In this document: positions 3,426 through 11,259 of the stretch, piece by piece
How positions within the stretch are numbered: the first letter of the stretch is position 1
Layout of the letters: each line of letters begins with the position of its first letter
From: Vicingus serpentipes
GTDB lineage: Bacteria > Bacteroidota > Bacteroidia > Flavobacteriales_E > Vicingaceae
Direction: 5' to 3'
NCBI RefSeq assembly: GCF_007993035.1
Contig: NZ_VOOS01000002.1
Coordinates: 1-64,000 of the forward strand
Length of the DNA: 64,000 bases
Position numbers and translations under genes: made by a program
The notes under the pieces: generated by a model
The model's input: only the letters and a program-made list of their open reading frames with translations
The model's database searches: none
What the model was told of the DNA's origin: nothing

Positions 3426-3485
3426 ATTTTAATCAGACATTTTAATTTTTGTAAAAAAAATATTTTTTAGCTGCCTAAATGGTTG

Positions 3486-3493
3486 TAAGTTTG
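3486..3493 (+). promoter_or_regulatory. Possible -7 element for the ilv operon
   Basis: TAAGTTTG matches the Bacteroidota -7 consensus TAnnTTTG. The -33 element is poor (only a T-run near 3463-3468). If used, transcription would start near 3497 and the leader ORF would have a 5' UTR of only about 5 bases. A promoter farther upstream is an alternative. Confidence 0.3.
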
Positions 3494-3501
3494 TACCAGT
3501 T

Positions 3502-3570
3502 ATGAAAATAAAAGTTATTATACCATCTATCGTCAACATTATTATTAATAATGTAACAGGGATGGTGTAA
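3502..3570 (+). CDS. Leader peptide of the ilv operon (Ile/Val-rich)
   Basis: A 22-codon ORF from ATG 3502 to TAA 3568-3570. Seven of its 22 residues are Ile and four are Val; none is Leu. Codons 5-7 read GTT ATT ATA, codons 10-11 ATC GTC and codons 13-15 ATT ATT ATT. This is the expected control peptide for an operon that makes isoleucine and valine but carries no leucine genes. The ORF overlaps RNA segments 1 and 2 of the attenuator, and its stop codon overlaps the end of segment 2. It is too short for ordinary gene calling. The call is an inference from codon content, position and the matching RNA structure. Confidence 0.8.
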   Translation: MKIKVIIPSIVNIIINNVTGMV

Positions 3571-3627
3571 CTAGTTTTATATAGTAAAGTTTAGTTTAAA
3601 AGCCATCCAAAAGGATGGCTTTTTTTT
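3520..3627 (+). promoter_or_regulatory. Transcription attenuator of ilvEDBNCA
   Basis: Four segments give three alternative pairings. Segment 1 ATACCATC (3520-3527) pairs with segment 2 GATGGTGT (3561-3568), 8 pairs with one G-U. Segment 2 GGATGGT (3560-3566) pairs with segment 3 GCCATCC (3602-3608), 7 pairs with one G-U, forming the antiterminator. Segment 3 AGCCATCC (3601-3608) pairs perfectly with segment 4 GGATGGCT (3613-3620), followed by a T-run, forming the terminator. Segment 1 lies inside the leader ORF among its Ile/Val codons. A ribosome stalled for Ile- or Val-tRNA would mask segment 1 and favour 2:3. A ribosome reaching the stop would mask segment 2 and allow 3:4. The pairings are read directly; the mechanism is inferred from known amino-acid attenuators. 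Confidence 0.82.
3601..3627 (+). terminator. Intrinsic terminator of the ilv attenuator
   Basis: The 8-bp stem AGCCATCC / GGATGGCT has an AAAA loop and runs into T(8) at 3620-3627. It sits 26 bases upstream of ilvE and after the leader stop codon, so it ends leader transcription rather than an upstream gene alone. Confidence 0.85.
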
Positions 3628-3653
3628 ATTAAAAAAATTAAAAACAAAAAAAA

Positions 3654-4544
3654 ATGTATTACAACGAAAACACAACAGTATTCTTAAATGGAAAATGGTT
3701 AAAAGCATCAGAAGCTAAAACTGATTTATATGCTCAAACATTACACTACGGTAATGGTGTGTTTGAAGGTATTAGATCTTATGATACCGAAGATGGTGTT
3801 CAAGTTTTTAAAGCCAAAGAACATTACGAAAGATTACTATATTCTGCACAAAAAATGCACATTAATATGAATTATACTGTTGAGGAATTAACTTCACTTA
3901 CTTACGAATTGTTAGAGAAAAATAATTTAAAAGATGCCTATATTCGTCCTTTAGTTTATCTAGGAGCAAATATGAGTTTACAGCCAACTGAAGAAGTAAA
4001 TGTGTTTTTGTGTGCATGGGAATGGGGTAAATATTTAGGTAATGATTTATTAAACTTAATGACTTCTTCATATCAACGCCCAAATCCTAAATCTTGCCAT
4101 GTAGAAGCAAAAGTGGTTGGTCATTATACAAATTCTATATTAGCAACTACTGAAGCAAAAAGTAAAGGTTTTGATGAAGCATTATTATTAGATGCAAAAG
4201 GAAATGTGGCTGAAGGACCAGGAGCAAACTTTTTTTATGAAAAAGATGGTGTAATTTACACGTCACCTTTAGGAAATATTTTACCAGGAATAACAAGATC
4301 TACAGTAATAGGATTGGCTAAAGAGTTAAATTTTAAAGTGGTTGAAAAATATTTTACACCAGAAGAAGTAAAAGGAGCTGATGGAGCTTTCTTTACAGGG
4401 ACTGCAGCAGAAGTTGCAGGAATAGCTTCTTTAGATGGTGTTAATTTTAAAATGAAATGGGAAGATACTATGGGCTCTGAATTAGCTAGAATGTATAAGC
4501 ACAGAGTATCTTCAAGAGAATATAAAAGTTTTGATTTAGTATAA
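3654..4544 (+). CDS. ilvE: Branched-chain amino-acid aminotransferase (class IV)
   Basis: Final transamination step for Ile, Val and Leu, PLP-dependent and cytosolic. The 296-residue length is typical of fold-type IV enzymes. The expected PLP lysine is K153 in [10 protein letters not shown], and the conserved glutamate is E187 in [17 protein letters not shown] near residue 37 and the GI(T)RSTV phosphate-binding segment near 212 are present. The ATG follows an A-rich stretch with no Shine-Dalgarno sequence, as usual in Bacteroidota. It is the first structural gene after the attenuator, and ilvD starts 10 bases later. D-amino-acid aminotransferase belongs to the same fold, but the operon context argues for IlvE. 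Confidence 0.95.
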
Positions 4545-4554
4545 TATAAAAATT

Positions 4555-6231
4555 ATGGAACTAAATAAGTTTAGTAAAAGAGTATCTCAAGATGATACAC
4601 AACCAGCAGCGCAAGCCATGTTGCATGCAATAGGTTTAACAAAAGAAGATTTTACAAAACCCTTTGTTGGAGTTGGCAGTACAGGTTATGAAGGAAATCC
4701 TTGTAACATGCATTTAAACGGATTAGCTCTTCATGTTAAAAAAGGTATAAATAAAGCAAATGGAGTAGGCTTAGTTTTTAATACTATAGGTGTGAGCGAT
4801 GGAATATCTATGGGAACTCCTGGCATGCGTTATTCTTTGCCTTCAAGAGATGTAATTGCAGATTCAATGGAAACTGTAGTTGAAGGGATGAGTTATGATG
4901 GATTAGTAACTGTTGTTGGGTGTGATAAAAATATGCCTGGAGCTCTAATTGCGATGTTAAGATTAAATCGTCCTTCTATTTTGGTTTATGGTGGCACAGT
5001 AGATTCAGGAAGTTGTCATGGGAAAAAATTAGATATTGTTTCTTCATTTGAAGCATGGGGAGCAAAGATGGCAGGAACAATGGATGAAAAAGAATTTCAA
5101 GAAATTATAGAAAATGCAGTACCTGGAGCTGGTGCTTGCGGTGGAATGTATACTGCAAACACAATGGCTTCGGCAATTGAAGCACTAGGTATGGCTTTAC
5201 CTTATAATTCTTCAAACCCTGCTTTAAGTGCTGATAAAGAAAAAGAAAGTTATAATGCAGGAAGTCAGGTAGTAGAATTGTTAAAATTAGATTTGAAGCC
5301 TTCAGATATAGTAAATAAAAAATCGATTGAAAATGCTATTACATTAGTAACAGTGTTAGGAGGTTCAACTAATGCTGTGTTACATTTTTTAGCAATTGCT
5401 GATGCTGCTCAAGTAGATTTTACGTTAGAAGATTTTAAAAGAATAAGTGATCAAACACCATTCTTGGCTGATTTAAAACCAAGTGGAAAGTATCTTATGG
5501 AAGATGTGCATAAAATAGGAGGTACACCGGCTGTTTTAAAATATTTATTAAACAAAGGGATGCTTCATGGTGATTGTCTTACGGTAACTGGAAAAACATT
5601 AGCTGAAAATTTAGCGGAAGTTCCAGATTTATTGGAAAATCAAGATGTTATTCGTCCGCTTGAAAATCCTTTAAAAGAAACAGGCCATATTAGAATTTTA
5701 GAAGGAAATATTGCTTTAGATGGTTCGGTAGCAAAAATAACAGGTAAAGAAGGCTTGAAATTTACTGGTACTGCTAAAGTTTATAATGGAGAATATGAAG
5801 CAAATGATGGGATAAGAAATGGCGAGGTAAAAAAAGGTGATGTTGTGGTTATAAGATATGAAGGACCAAAAGGAGGACCAGGAATGCCAGAAATGTTAAA
5901 ACCTACAGCTGCAATAATGGGAGCAGGCTTAGGTCAAGATGTGGCACTAATTACTGATGGCCGTTTTTCTGGTGGTACTCATGGTTTCGTTGTAGGACAC
6001 ATTACACCTGAAGCACAGATTGGAGGTAATATAGCTTTATTAAAAGATGGCGATGTGATTACAATAGATGCTGAATTGAATACGATAAATGTTGATTTAA
6101 CGGATGAACAATTAGCTGAAAGAAGAAATAATTGGATAGCACCTGAACTTAAAGTAAAAAGAGGTGTTTTATACAAATATGCAAAAACTGTTTCATCAGC
6201 ATCTTTAGGGTGTGTTACCGATAAATTTTAA
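4555..6231 (+). CDS. ilvD: Dihydroxy-acid dehydratase
   Basis: Dehydrates 2,3-dihydroxy-isovalerate and its methylvalerate analogue to the 2-keto acids, the third common step of Val/Ile synthesis. The 558-residue length is normal. The three conserved cluster cysteines are visible: C50 (GNPCNMH), C123 (GCDKNMPG) and C195 ([10 protein letters not shown]), the pattern of [Fe-S] enzymes of the IlvD/Edd family. The C-terminal [10 protein letters not shown] and [10 protein letters not shown] motifs are intact. IlvD rather than 6-phosphogluconate dehydratase is supported by flanking ilvE and ilvB, 10 and 3 bases away. Confidence 0.97.
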
Positions 6232-6234
6232 GAA

Positions 6235-7956
6235 ATGGAAGATTTAAAAGTTGAAAAAAAGAAGACAAAACTTAAAATAAGTGGAGCTGAAGCTGTTGTA
6301 AAGTGTTTGCTAGCTGAAGGTGTTGATTTAATGTTTGGATATCCTGGCGGAGCAATTATGCCAGTTTACGATGCTCTTTACGATTATCAAGATAAATTAA
6401 ATCACGTTTTAACAAGACATGAACAAGGGGCTATTCACTCAGCTCAAGGTTATGCTCGTTCTTCAGGTAAAGTTGGTGTTTGTATAGCTACATCAGGACC
6501 CGGAGCGACTAATTTAATAACGGGAATAGCTGATGCTCAAATTGATTCTACTCCTTTAGTCTGTATTACAGGTCAAGTTCACTCACATTTATTAGGTACT
6601 GATGCATTTCAAGAAACTGATGTTGTAGGTATATCAATGCCTGTAACAAAATGGAACTGTCAAGTTACTAAAGCAGAAGATATACCAGCAGCTTTAGCTA
6701 AAGCATTTTATATCGCTCGTTCAGGAAGACCTGGACCTGTTTTAGTTGACATAACTAAAGATGCTCAGTTTGGCGAATTTGAGTTTCACTATGAGAAATG
6801 TAATCAAGTAAGAAGCTATGTAGCTAAACCAAAAGTAGATTTAGCAAGTGTTAAAGCAGCAGCAGATTTAATAAATCAAGCAAAAAAGCCTTTTGTATTA
6901 TTTGGTCAAGGAGTTATTTTAGCTGAAGCTGAGGAAGAATTTAAAGCGTTTATCGAAAAAGCTGGATTACCTTCAGCATGGACTATTATGGGGTTATCTG
7001 CATTAGCAACAAATCACCCTTTAAATATTGGTATGTTGGGGATGCATGGTAATTATGCACCAAATGTTTTAACTAACGAATGTGATGTTTTAATTGCTGT
7101 AGGAATGCGATTTGATGACAGGGTTACTGGAAATTTAGAAAAGTATGCTAAACAAGCAAAAGTTGTTCATTTGGAGATTGACCCTGCTGAAATCGACAAA
7201 AATGTAAAAAGTACTGTTGCAGTTTTAGGTGATTGTAAAGAATCGCTTAAGGAACTTACTAAATTAGTAGATAAAAAAACACATCTAAATTGGCTAAATA
7301 AATTTTATGAGTTAAGAGAAATTGAAAAAACGAAAGTAATAGATGCTGAAACTAACCCAACTGATGGAGAATTAACTATGGGGGAGGTTATTTCAAGAAT
7401 AAATGAAGTAACTAAAGGAGAAGCAATAGTTGTTACAGATGTAGGACAACACCAAATGATTGCGTGTAGATATGCAGCTTTTAATCAAACCAAAAGCATG
7501 ATAACTTCTGGAGGGTTAGGTACAATGGGCTTTTGTTTACCAGCAGCAATAGGAGCTAAATTTGGTGCACCAAATAGGCAAGTAATAGGTGTTATTGGCG
7601 ATGGTGGATTTCAAATGACAATTCAAGAATTAGGGACTATATTTCAAACTAAAATAGATGTTAAGCTATTAATCCTAAATAATGAGTTTTTAGGAATGGT
7701 TCGTCAATGGCAAGATTTATTTTTTGATAAACGCTATTCTTCAACTGAAATGGTTAATCCTGACTTCCAAACAATAGCAAAAGGATATGGTTTGGCTACT
7801 AATAAAGTTGATAAAAGATCATTATTAGATGATGCAATAAAGGAAATGTTGAATCATAAAGGATCTTACCTTTTAGAAGTAATGGTTGGAAAAGAAAATA
7901 ATGTATTTCCAATGGTTCCTACAGGAGCTTCAGTGTCAGAAATACGTTTAGATTAA
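6235..7956 (+). CDS. ilvB: Acetolactate synthase, large catalytic subunit
   Basis: ThDP-dependent condensation of two pyruvates, or pyruvate plus 2-ketobutyrate, the first common step of Val/Ile synthesis. The 573 residues carry the cofactor-activating glutamate E63 in RHEQGAIHSAQGYAR, a central FAD-binding domain (FDDRVTGN near 293), and the ThDP/Mg motif GDGGFQ (455-460) ending in NN at 482-483. It starts 3 bases after ilvD and is followed 12 bases later by the regulatory subunit gene, which confirms the biosynthetic AHAS type over a catabolic acetolactate synthase. Confidence 0.96.
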   Translation: MEDLKVEKKKTKLKISGAEAVVKCLLAEGVDLMFGYPGGAIMPVYDALYDYQDKLNHVLTRHEQGAIHSAQGYARSSGKVGVCIATSGPGATNLITGIADAQIDSTPLVCITGQVHSHLLGTDAFQETDVVGISMPVTKWNCQVTKAEDIPAALAKAFYIARSGRPGPVLVDITKDAQFGEFEFHYEKCNQVRSYVAKPKVDLASVKAAADLINQAKKPFVLFGQGVILAEAEEEFKAFIEKAGLPSAWTIMGLSALATNHPLNIGMLGMHGNYAPNVLTNECDVLIAVGMRFDDRVTGNLEKYAKQAKVVHLEIDPAEIDKNVKSTVAVLGDCKESLKELTKLVDKKTHLNWLNKFYELREIEKTKVIDAETNPTDGELTMGEVISRINEVTKGEAIVVTDVGQHQMIACRYAAFNQTKSMITSGGLGTMGFCLPAAIGAKFGAPNRQVIGVIGDGGFQMTIQELGTIFQTKIDVKLLILNNEFLGMVRQWQDLFFDKRYSSTEMVNPDFQTIAKGYGLATNKVDKRSLLDDAIKEMLNHKGSYLLEVMVGKENNVFPMVPTGASVSEIRLD

Positions 7957-7968
7957 AAATCGGAAAAA

Positions 7969-8508
7969 ATGAGTAAAACACAATTTACAATATCTGTTTT
8001 TACAGAAGATCAGATTGGATTATTAAATAGAGTAAGTATAATATTTACAAGAAGGCATATAAATATTGAAAGTATAGCTGCTTCTGAGAGTGAAATTAAA
8101 GGAATACACCGTTATACAATTGTAATTACAGAGGAAGAAGAATTAGTAATTAAGGTAGTAAAGCAATTAGATAAGCAAGTTGATGTTGTGAGAGCTTTTT
8201 ACCATACAAATGAAGAAGTTGTATTTCAAGAAATAGCATTGTATAAAGTAGCTACAAATGTTTTAGCGGCTGGAGGAAATGCGGAGAAAATTGTACGAAA
8301 ACATAATGCTAGATTTTTAACTGTAGAACCAGCATTTACAATTATTGAAAAAACTGGACATAAAGAAGAAACTCAGCTATTATTTGACGAATTAGCACCT
8401 TACGGCATTTTAGAATTTGTCAGGTCAGGGAGAGTGGCTATAACAAAACCAATGAAAGAATTAAGGGAATATTTAAACGAATTAGAAATTGCATCAGCAA
8501 ATAAATAA
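7969..8508 (+). CDS. ilvN: Acetolactate synthase, small regulatory subunit
   Basis: Regulatory partner of IlvB that normally confers valine feedback inhibition and raises activity. The 179 residues start with an ACT domain (FTISVFTEDQIGLLNRVSII, residues 6-25, with the GLLNRV turn), followed by the C-terminal ACT-like domain of the longer IlvN/IlvH form. The product is cytosolic and lies between ilvB and ilvC with short gaps. Whether it is valine-sensitive cannot be read from the sequence. Confidence 0.93.
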   Translation: MSKTQFTISVFTEDQIGLLNRVSIIFTRRHINIESIAASESEIKGIHRYTIVITEEEELVIKVVKQLDKQVDVVRAFYHTNEEVVFQEIALYKVATNVLAAGGNAEKIVRKHNARFLTVEPAFTIIEKTGHKEETQLLFDELAPYGILEFVRSGRVAITKPMKELREYLNELEIASANK

Positions 8509-8517
8509 AGAAATAAG

Positions 8518-9993
8518 ATGAAAAATTACTTCAATACATTACCACTAAGAAAACAGTTAGAGCAACTTGGAACTTGCGATTTTATGGATTCATCAGAATT
8601 TGATGAAGGAACAAGTAAACTAGAAGGTAAAAAAATTGTTATCGTTGGATGTGGCTCTCAAGGGTTAAATCAAGGACTAAATATAAGAGATTCAGGATTA
8701 GATGTTTCATACACTTTGAGAGATTCTGCAATTAATGAAAAAAGAACCTCTTATTTAAATGCTTCTGAAAATGGTTTTAAAGTGGGTACATATCAAGAAA
8801 TGATCCCTACAGCTGATTTGGTAATTAACTTAACTCCAGATAAGCAACATACTTCAGTTGTTCAAGCGGTTATGCCATTAATGAAAAATGGTGCTGCACT
8901 TTCATATTCTCATGGTTTTAATATTGTTGAGGAAGGTATGGAAATCAGAAAAGATATTACCGTTGTAATGGTAGCTCCTAAATCACCGGGTACTGAAGTG
9001 AGAGAAGAATTTAAAAGAGGATTTGGAGTACCAACTTTAATAGCTGTTCATCCAGAAAATGATCCAAATGGAGATGGTTTGGAGATAGCAAAAGCTTATT
9101 GTGTAGGAACAGGTGGTCATAAAGCAGGTGTGTTACATTCGTCTTTTGTTGCGGAAGTTAAATCTGATTTAATGGGAGAACAAACCATATTATGTGGGGT
9201 ATTACAAACTGGCTCTATATTATGTTTTGATAAAATGGTTGAAAAAGGTGTAGAACCTGGTTATGCTGCAAAACTAATTCAATATGGATGGGAAGTAATT
9301 ACAGAAGCATTAAAGCATGGTGGAATTACTAACATGATGGATAGACTTTCAAATCCTGCAAAAATAGCAGCGTTTGATATTGCTGAAGAATTAAAAGAAA
9401 TAATGACTCCTTTATTTCAAAAACATATGGATGATATTATGTCTGGTGAATTTTCGAAAGGCATGATGAAAGATTGGGCGAATAATGATGCCGATTTATT
9501 AAAGTGGAGAGCTGAGACAGGTGAAACAGCTTTTGAAAAAACAGAAGCAATATCTTCTGAATTATCAGAACAAGAATATTTTGATAATGGATTGTTGATG
9601 GTAGCTTTTGTAAAAGCTGGTGTAGAGTTAGCTTTTGAAACAATGACAGAAACTGGAATAAAAGAAGAGTCGGCTTATTACGAATCGTTGCATGAAGCAC
9701 CATTAATTGCAAATACAATTGCTCGTAAAAAACTGTTTGAAATGAACAGAATAATAAGTGATACAGCTGAATATGGTTGTTATTTGTTTGATCATTCATG
9801 CAAGCCTTTATTAGCTGATTTTATGAAAAAAGTTGATATCAATTTAATTGGTAAAAACTTCAATGAAAATATAAATACTGGAGTCGATAATAAAGAATTG
9901 ATAGAAGTGAACGAATTAATCAGATTTCATCCGATAGAAATAATTGGTTATGAGTTAAGAGAATCGATGACTGAAATGACTAATTTAAATTAG
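8518..9993 (+). CDS. ilvC: Ketol-acid reductoisomerase, class II (long form)
   Basis: Mg- and NADPH-dependent isomerisation and reduction of acetolactate, second common step of Val/Ile synthesis. The 491-residue length with a duplicated knotted C-terminal domain is the class II, E. coli-like form; class I is about 330-340 residues. The Rossmann motif [17 protein letters not shown] begins near residue 42. The acidic metal ligands are expected in the [15 protein letters not shown] segment near 213, and [11 protein letters not shown] is conserved. It starts 9 bases after ilvN and 6 bases before ilvA. Confidence 0.97.
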
Positions 9994-9999
9994 GTTTAA

Positions 10000-11259
10000 A
10001 TGAAAACAGCTACTTATTTTCCAAAATTAGAAGATGTAAAATTTGCCTCTAGTATTTTAAAAGATGTGGCATCTGAAACTCCTTTGATGATAAATTTTAA
10101 TGCATCAAAAGAGCATGATGCAACCATTTATTTAAAAAGAGAAGATTTACAAAATGTAAGATCTTACAAAATTAGAGGTGCTTTTAACAAAATAAGTAGT
10201 TTAACTAATGATGAATTAGCTAAAGGAGTAGTGTGTGCTAGTGCGGGAAATCATGCTCAAGGGGTTGCGTTTAGCTGTAGGTACAAAAAAATAAAAGGCG
10301 TAATATTTATGCCTTTACCAACTCCTCAACAAAAAATTGAACAAGTTAGAATGTTTGGAGAAGACTACGTTCAAATTAAATTAGTAGGAGACACTTTTGA
10401 TGATGCACAGTTAGCTGCTAAAGAGTTTTGTACAAATAATCAGATGACATTTATTCCTCCATTTGATGATGAGAAAGTAATAGAAGGTCAAGCTACGGTT
10501 GGGTTGGAAATATTAGCGCAAGCTAAAGCTCCTATAGATTACCTTTTTTTACCAATAGGGGGTGGTGGATTGGCTGCAGGAGTCATTTCCGTTTTTAAAC
10601 AATTGTCTCCAAATACAAAGGTTGTTGGAGTAGAACCAGAAGGAGCGCCTTCAATGAGTACTTCAATAAAAAATGGAGAGAATACCAAATTATTAAATAT
10701 AGATAAGTTTATCGATGGCGCTGCCGTTCAAAAAGTAGGAGATTTAACTTTTCAAATTTGTAAAGATAATTTAGCTGATATGGTAGTTGTGCCTGAAGGC
10801 AAAGTTTGTGAAACCATTTTAAAATTGTACAATAAAGATGCTATAGTTGTTGAGCCAGCTGGAGCATTATCGTTAGCTGCTTTAGATCAATATCATGAAG
10901 AGATAAAAGGAAAAAATGTAGTTTGTGTATTAAGTGGAAGTAATAATGATATTACTCGAATGGAGGAAATAAAAGAAAGAGCACTTTTATATAGTGGATT
11001 AAAACATTATTTTATTGTCAATTTTGCGCAACGAGCAGGAGCTTTAAAAGAGTTTGTAAATGATATTTTAGGTCCAAATGATGATATTACCTATTTTGAG
11101 TTTTCTCAAAAAAATAATAGAGAAAAAGGCCCTGCAGTTGTTGGAGTTCAACTAAAGTCTAAAGAAGATTTACAGCCTTTAATGTTGAGAATGATGGATA
11201 GAGGTGTATTAGGAGAGTACTTAAATGAGAAGCCTAATTTGCTAAATATGATTATCTAA
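10000..11259 (+). CDS. ilvA: Biosynthetic threonine ammonia-lyase
   Basis: PLP-dependent deamination of threonine to 2-ketobutyrate, the committed step to isoleucine. The Schiff-base lysine is K57 in VRSYKIRGAF, and the phosphate-binding glycine loop GGGGLAAG is near 187. The C-terminal 85 residues look like a single ACT-like regulatory domain, so the 419 residues match the shorter Bacillus/Corynebacterium type rather than the 514-residue E. coli enzyme with two. The presence of ilvA explains why the leader peptide senses Ile as well as Val. It is the last ilv gene in the run; no leu genes follow. Confidence 0.94.
   Translation: MKTATYFPKLEDVKFASSILKDVASETPLMINFNASKEHDATIYLKREDLQNVRSYKIRGAFNKISSLTNDELAKGVVCASAGNHAQGVAFSCRYKKIKGVIFMPLPTPQQKIEQVRMFGEDYVQIKLVGDTFDDAQLAAKEFCTNNQMTFIPPFDDEKVIEGQATVGLEILAQAKAPIDYLFLPIGGGGLAAGVISVFKQLSPNTKVVGVEPEGAPSMSTSIKNGENTKLLNIDKFIDGAAVQKVGDLTFQICKDNLADMVVVPEGKVCETILKLYNKDAIVVEPAGALSLAALDQYHEEIKGKNVVCVLSGSNNDITRMEEIKERALLYSGLKHYFIVNFAQRAGALKEFVNDILGPNDDITYFEFSQKNNREKGPAVVGVQLKSKEDLQPLMLRMMDRGVLGEYLNEKPNLLNMII

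Follow-up and report, generated by a model that had tools for sequence, protein, structure and literature searches.

A probable Ile/Val-sensing transcription attenuator upstream of the ilv operon of Vicingus serpentipes and its recurrence in Bacteroidia

Introduction

Does the short ORF preceding the ilvEDBNCA operon of Vicingus serpentipes, a member of the Bacteroidota, control that operon through ribosome-mediated attenuation, as a sequence-only reading of the locus had proposed? This mode of control, known from ilvGMEDA, ilvBN and the his, trp and thr operons of Enterobacteria, requires a ribosome that follows close behind RNA polymerase. In Bacteroidota, Shine-Dalgarno sequences are rarely used. 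Vitreschak et al. (2004, FEMS Microbiol Lett) are said to have predicted attenuators by comparative genomics in Proteobacteria and Bacteroidetes/Chlorobi, some of them in Bacteroidetes.

More recently, the main text of a study of Flavobacterium psychrophilum speaks of "strong clues" that amino-acid operons there are preceded by leader-peptide attenuators (PMC9723704), and short ORFs reminiscent of leader peptides have been described in Bacteroides thetaiotaomicron (PMC7366714).

Results

Leader, terminator and operon

The leader lies between the stop codon of an upstream same-strand gene (3425) and the start of ilvE (Table 1), within a window (the whole stretch of DNA analysed) of 64 kb. Its 22 codons comprise seven Ile, four Val and no Leu, and among the 349 ATG-started ORFs of 15-30 amino acids on both strands of the window it has the highest Ile/Val fraction. 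When the region 3426-3653 was shuffled with dinucleotide content preserved, an ORF matching this richness arose in 0 of 2000 shuffles and a terminator with dG <= -10 in 14 of 2000. The combination of leader and terminator at 3502-3627 is the only such module detected in the window on either strand. A search at the Rfam gathering threshold, which included the T-box and known riboswitch families, returned no covariance-model match in the window.

Table 1. Features of the leader region and the ilv operon (positions in the window)
Feature	Position	Strand	Remarks
Bacteroidota sigmaA-type -7 box, TAAGTTTG	3486..3493	+	exact TAnnTTTG; spacing conserved in relatives
Leader peptide ORF, MKIKVIIPSIVNIIINNVTGMV and stop	3502..3570	+	ATG at 3502, TAA at 3568-3570; 11/22 codons Ile/Val, Leu 0; comparable leaders in relatives
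Segment 1, TACCATCT	3521..3528	+	within leader ORF; partner segment 2; fold z -2.65
Segment 2, GGATGGTG	3560..3567	+	final leader codons, abutting stop; partner segment 1 or 3
Segment 3, GCCATCC	3602..3608	+	partner segment 2 (antiterminator) or segment 4 (terminator)
Intrinsic terminator	3598..3627	+	stem 3598-3608/3613-3623 (segments 3 and 4); T-run 3620-3627
ilvE, branched-chain aminotransferase	3654..4544	+	TIGR01122 above cut-off
ilvD, dihydroxy-acid dehydratase	4555..6231	+	TIGR00110 above cut-off
ilvB, acetolactate synthase large subunit	6235..7956	+	TIGR00118 above cut-off
ilvN, acetolactate synthase small subunit	7969..8508	+	TIGR00119 above cut-off
ilvC, ketol-acid reductoisomerase	8518..9993	+	NF003557 and TIGR00465 above cut-off
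ilvA, threonine ammonia-lyase	10000..11259	+	TIGR02079 above cut-off

Folding of the window sequence gave a 1:2 hairpin of -13.7 (z -2.65), a 2:3 pairing of 3560-3566 with 3602-3608 of -15.1 (z -3.7) and a 3:4 stem with a dG of -16.3 (z -5.4) that runs into eight T residues. The 2:3 antiterminator and the 3:4 terminator are mutually exclusive, and the 5' half of the antiterminator is located at the leader stop. The sequence-only reading had counted half of the 22 codons as Ile or Val with none for Leu, and had placed a T-run after segment 4; both descriptions are accurate. It was also right that the operon holds Ile/Val genes without leu genes, as all six ilv genes were confirmed and leuA, searched for across the whole genome of V. 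serpentipes, was not found, which agrees with the lack of Leu codons in the leader. Its statement that the leader stop overlaps segment 2 does not stand, since the paired core sits directly before the stop codon instead.

As a separate observation on these genes, among genomes of the same genus and family (G001-G036) this type of ilvD is absent from the three congeners and most of the family, and a few members of another genus (g13) carry an IlvD 81-88% identical to that of V. serpentipes. The distribution would fit patchy loss or transfer of Ile/Val synthesis.

Proposed mechanism

The element very probably controls transcription by ribosome-mediated attenuation of the trp/his/ilv type, with charged tRNA-Ile and tRNA-Val as the signals. 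Transcription would start about 4 nt 5' of the leader ATG, and ribosomes would load nearly at the RNA 5' end without a Shine-Dalgarno sequence. With ample Ile and Val, the ribosome would reach the stop codon and cover segment 2, leaving segments 3 and 4 to form the terminator, and transcription would end short of ilvE. Under a shortage of Ile or Val, the ribosome would stall at the Ile/Val codons and leave segment 2 free for segment 3; the 2:3 pairing would then preclude the terminator and ilvEDBNCA would be transcribed. If translation were absent altogether, 1:2 and 3:4 would both form and termination would follow. The leader and its RNA switch thus most likely would turn on the Ile/Val genes only under Ile/Val shortage.

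Conservation of the module in related ilv loci

A scan of GTDB genomes for IlvD yielded 80 loci, mostly from Flavobacteriaceae with some from Saprospiraceae and Crocinitomicaceae. Under fixed thresholds, on which the counts depend, 70 Ile/Val leader and terminator modules were found in 51 of 84 related ilv loci, the counts not being independent because the loci are related; by eye, weaker Ile/Val leaders are visible in L053, L084, L098 and L102. A similar search of the 80 loci gave 71 modules within the 79 kb that lies upstream of ilv and 8 within the other 1.95 Mb, roughly a 200-fold difference in density. By the fixed criteria, no module is present in about a third of the 84 loci, and the control is therefore not universal.

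The leaders in the modules have 16-38 codons (median 20), of which 34% are Ile and 13% Val, and in all modules but two, 20-38 nt separate the leader stop from the terminator. Ile/Val leaders upstream of ilv operons recur in Flavobacteriales and in other Bacteroidia: class-level genomes from other families have comparable leaders, for example MQISIIITSVVVVNVIHTSASGML, MKKLTIIIISIIVVKPPG and MFRQQATIVVIIVIRPPGG, and some of the leaders are Leu-rich. Long hydrophobic ORFs (family f12) and GTG-started ORFs among the class-level hits were not accepted as leaders.

Co-variation of the alternative pairings

If segment 3 has to pair with both 2 and 4, segments 2, 3 and 4 should change together. In a swap test, the duplex energy of each segment-2 region with its own segment 3 was compared with that obtained with segment 3 of other modules. 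Across 81 modules, a set that may include a few doubtful leaders, the own 2:3 pairing averaged -9.3 versus -6.3 kcal/mol when swapped (z -12.6; 0 of 20000 permutations), and a separate run gave z -10.3. The difference persists in 18 non-redundant modules, a set used in this test because the loci are related (z -7.0; 0 of 20000 permutations), and control sequences taken from before the leader ATG or from beyond the T-run gave null results (z -0.3 to -1.3). The nearest relatives of the window have GGATGG as segment 2 and CCATCC as segment 3, with the exception of L032, where segment 2 is GAGAATGG and the terminator arms are CCCTTCTC and GAGAAGGG.

The 1:2 pairing behaves differently, with z -4.0 over all modules versus -0.2 in the 18 non-redundant ones, and is not supported as a generally conserved element; it is retained for the window. 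The earlier proposal of 1:2, 2:3 and 3:4 pairings thus holds for the window, where all three fold, whereas 1:2 finds no support across the non-redundant modules. Likewise, the comparison that it had suggested, of leader ORF and pairing segments in relatives, revealed recurrent leaders and joint change of segments 2, 3 and 4 and did not refute the proposal; for segment 1 no such change was supported in the non-redundant set.

Across the modules, segment 2 starts at or close to the leader stop. Ile/Val codons cluster at 4-14 codons from the stop, where their frequency is 0.47-0.83 per codon, and few occur among the final three codons. This layout is the geometry that the proposed switch would require, in which a ribosome positioned at the stop would cover segment 2 and one stalled at Ile/Val codons would expose it.

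Near-leaderless start

The -7 box of F. psychrophilum spans -12 to -5 according to the main text of PMC9723704. Applied to the box in the window, this spacing predicts that transcription begins near 3498, which is 4 nt upstream of the leader's start codon. The window's -33 element is weak. Counting a box when at least 5 of the 6 fixed positions match, we found one 7-10 nt before the ATG of the 5'-most leader in 33 of 50 loci, corresponding to a start about 4-5 nt upstream; the same spacing was seen before the first ilv gene in 1 of 50 and before the 3' modules of tandem pairs in 0 of 18. The predicted near-leaderless initiation is thus conserved among these Ile/Val leaders, and the suggestion that the leader has almost no 5' UTR gains from the conserved spacing. 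Leaderless mRNAs made up only 5.5% of those examined in F. psychrophilum, as given in the same main text. Extension to all leaders of the lineage is ruled out by the V. serpentipes genome itself, in which the box lies about 19-20 nt before the ATG of the his and asnA leaders; that of the trp leader lies 9 nt before its ATG.

Tandem modules and other leaders in the genome

Two complete Ile/Val modules stand in series in 18 of the 50 leader-bearing loci (L034, L036, L037, L040, L042, L043, L045, L046, L056, L064, L074, L088, L093, L095, L099, L104, L108 and L109); the window has one. Carriers include Tenacibaculum, Aquimarina, Gelidibacter, Bizionia and a Crocinitomicaceae genome (L099). The second ATG is usually 13-34 nt past the start of the first terminator's T-run, and the second module lacks a promoter box 7-10 nt before its ATG.

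The V. serpentipes genome also contains leaders followed by terminators that are His-rich before hisG (MKFIQLHHHHFHTCSQARS, L146), Trp-rich before trpE (MGMTKNTNWWWFSLNSINVN, L148) and Phe/Tyr-rich before pheA (MNKSITYFFYYFFNFKN, L152). On this evidence, V. serpentipes appears to rely on attenuation generally for amino-acid control. The Phe leader begins directly after the asnA stop codon, and upstream of asnA (L152:52-330) there are tandem Asn-rich leaders, MKTNFNNNFYFNPKN and MMNFYFNNNFNYATPPGGD, with a terminator after each. Asn-rich leaders precede asnA in three other families as well (L157, L169 and L173, the last in tandem). These look like an Asn-sensing attenuator of asparagine synthetase.

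Discussion

Alternative explanations

The hairpin could serve only the upstream gene, as its intrinsic terminator, and the ORF could be a chance AT-rich frame with many ATT codons. The terminator does lie downstream of a same-strand gene, and Ile codons are favoured in an AT-rich region such as this one, but this explanation is hardly credible given that no shuffle among the 2000 reached the richness of the ORF, that modules are some 200-fold denser upstream of ilv than elsewhere, that 2:3 co-varies across loci and that a promoter box separates the upstream gene from the leader. In other phyla, amino-acid operons are controlled by T-boxes or by proteins, TRAP among them, and a metabolite riboswitch, a T-box or an RNA-binding protein might be the sensor here, the ORF being incidental. 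We consider this very improbable: Rfam finds no match in the window at gathering threshold, only about 100 nt of mostly coding RNA precede the terminator, and divergent leaders retain their Ile/Val codons in frame even though their nucleotide sequences and terminators differ.

Leader peptides in other systems are also able to act on translation, and ilvE starts just 26 nt past the T-run, so the leader could regulate translation, by re-initiation or by freeing the ilvE start, or else Rho-dependent termination, rather than work through the intrinsic terminator. Against this stand the strength of the U-run terminator (z -5.4), whose 5' arm co-varies with the segment at the leader stop, and the position of the first gene in many relatives, 250-560 nt after the leader start and too distant for simple re-initiation; these mechanisms are clearly unlikely. 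Anatomy, conservation and 2:3 co-variation argue for the original proposal, that a ribosome-mediated attenuator controls ilvEDBNCA.

Relation to known attenuators

Like the attenuators of Enterobacteria, the V. serpentipes element has a short leader with regulatory codons, a terminator before the first gene and a mutually exclusive antiterminator, and would sense the operon's own products. Unlike them, its leader is compact (22 codons), unrelated in sequence and devoid of Leu codons and of an evident Shine-Dalgarno sequence, and the RNA is predicted to begin about 4 nt upstream of its ATG. The sequence-only reading had thought a complete attenuator in a Bacteroidota worthy of attention; the element is present, but it is less exceptional than supposed, attenuation having already been inferred in F. 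psychrophilum, as reported in the main text of PMC9723704. That system shares the class-level lineage, the inferred mechanism and structured 5' elements, there before genes such as pheA and hisG. The main text names no ilv operon or Ile/Val leader sequence and, unlike the present analysis, has no alternative-pairing test, near-leaderless spacing or tandem modules.

The doubled modules of the relatives may be compared with the tandem attenuators of Salmonella mgtCBR, which has two short ORFs in one leader region (PMC3641672). In both, two short ORFs affect, or in the relatives would be expected to affect, transcription into the coding region. However, mgtCBR is a magnesium/virulence operon, whereas the two modules of the relatives are rich in the same amino acids and precede biosynthetic genes; the window is single-module. 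In the literature searched, which did not cover most subscription journals, we found no report of tandem same-amino-acid biosynthetic attenuators. The mechanism class is already known. Three things appear to be new: the co-variation quantified across the lineage, the near-leaderless spacing, and the placing of modules in series in relatives.

We propose, with about even confidence, that these features define a distinct Bacteroidota variant of attenuation, in which the near-leaderless leader, with its -7 box 7-10 nt before the ATG, ties ribosome loading to the emerging 5' end and dispenses with a Shine-Dalgarno sequence. In this variant, the serial same-amino-acid attenuators of many lineages would give a multiplied, steeper response. 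A near-leaderless start would be a simple way to synchronize ribosome and polymerase in Bacteroidota, and tandem modules predict that read-through is the product of two switches. As attenuation needs a close-following ribosome, its wide presence in Bacteroidia would be comparative evidence for transcription-translation coupling. With no Rfam match for the element, such leaders are readily overlooked in annotation.

Codon bias and a conserved upstream stretch

In the 70 modules, GTC accounts for 40% of leader Val codons versus 9% in the first ilv genes, a preference that the window's own leader does not show, and the Ile codon ATA is under-used in the leaders. Choice of the most sensitive codon could account for this bias, as could shared ancestry or structure. 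A conserved stretch 150-250 nt upstream of ilvD, reading about TTGAACATCATAA, 20 nt, TTGATNATCAA and then GAGTTTAG, was not seen in the window and occurs with or without a leader in ten loci (L039, L056, L063, L065, L069, L070, L072, L077, L082 and L110); it is perhaps a regulator site or an RNA element.
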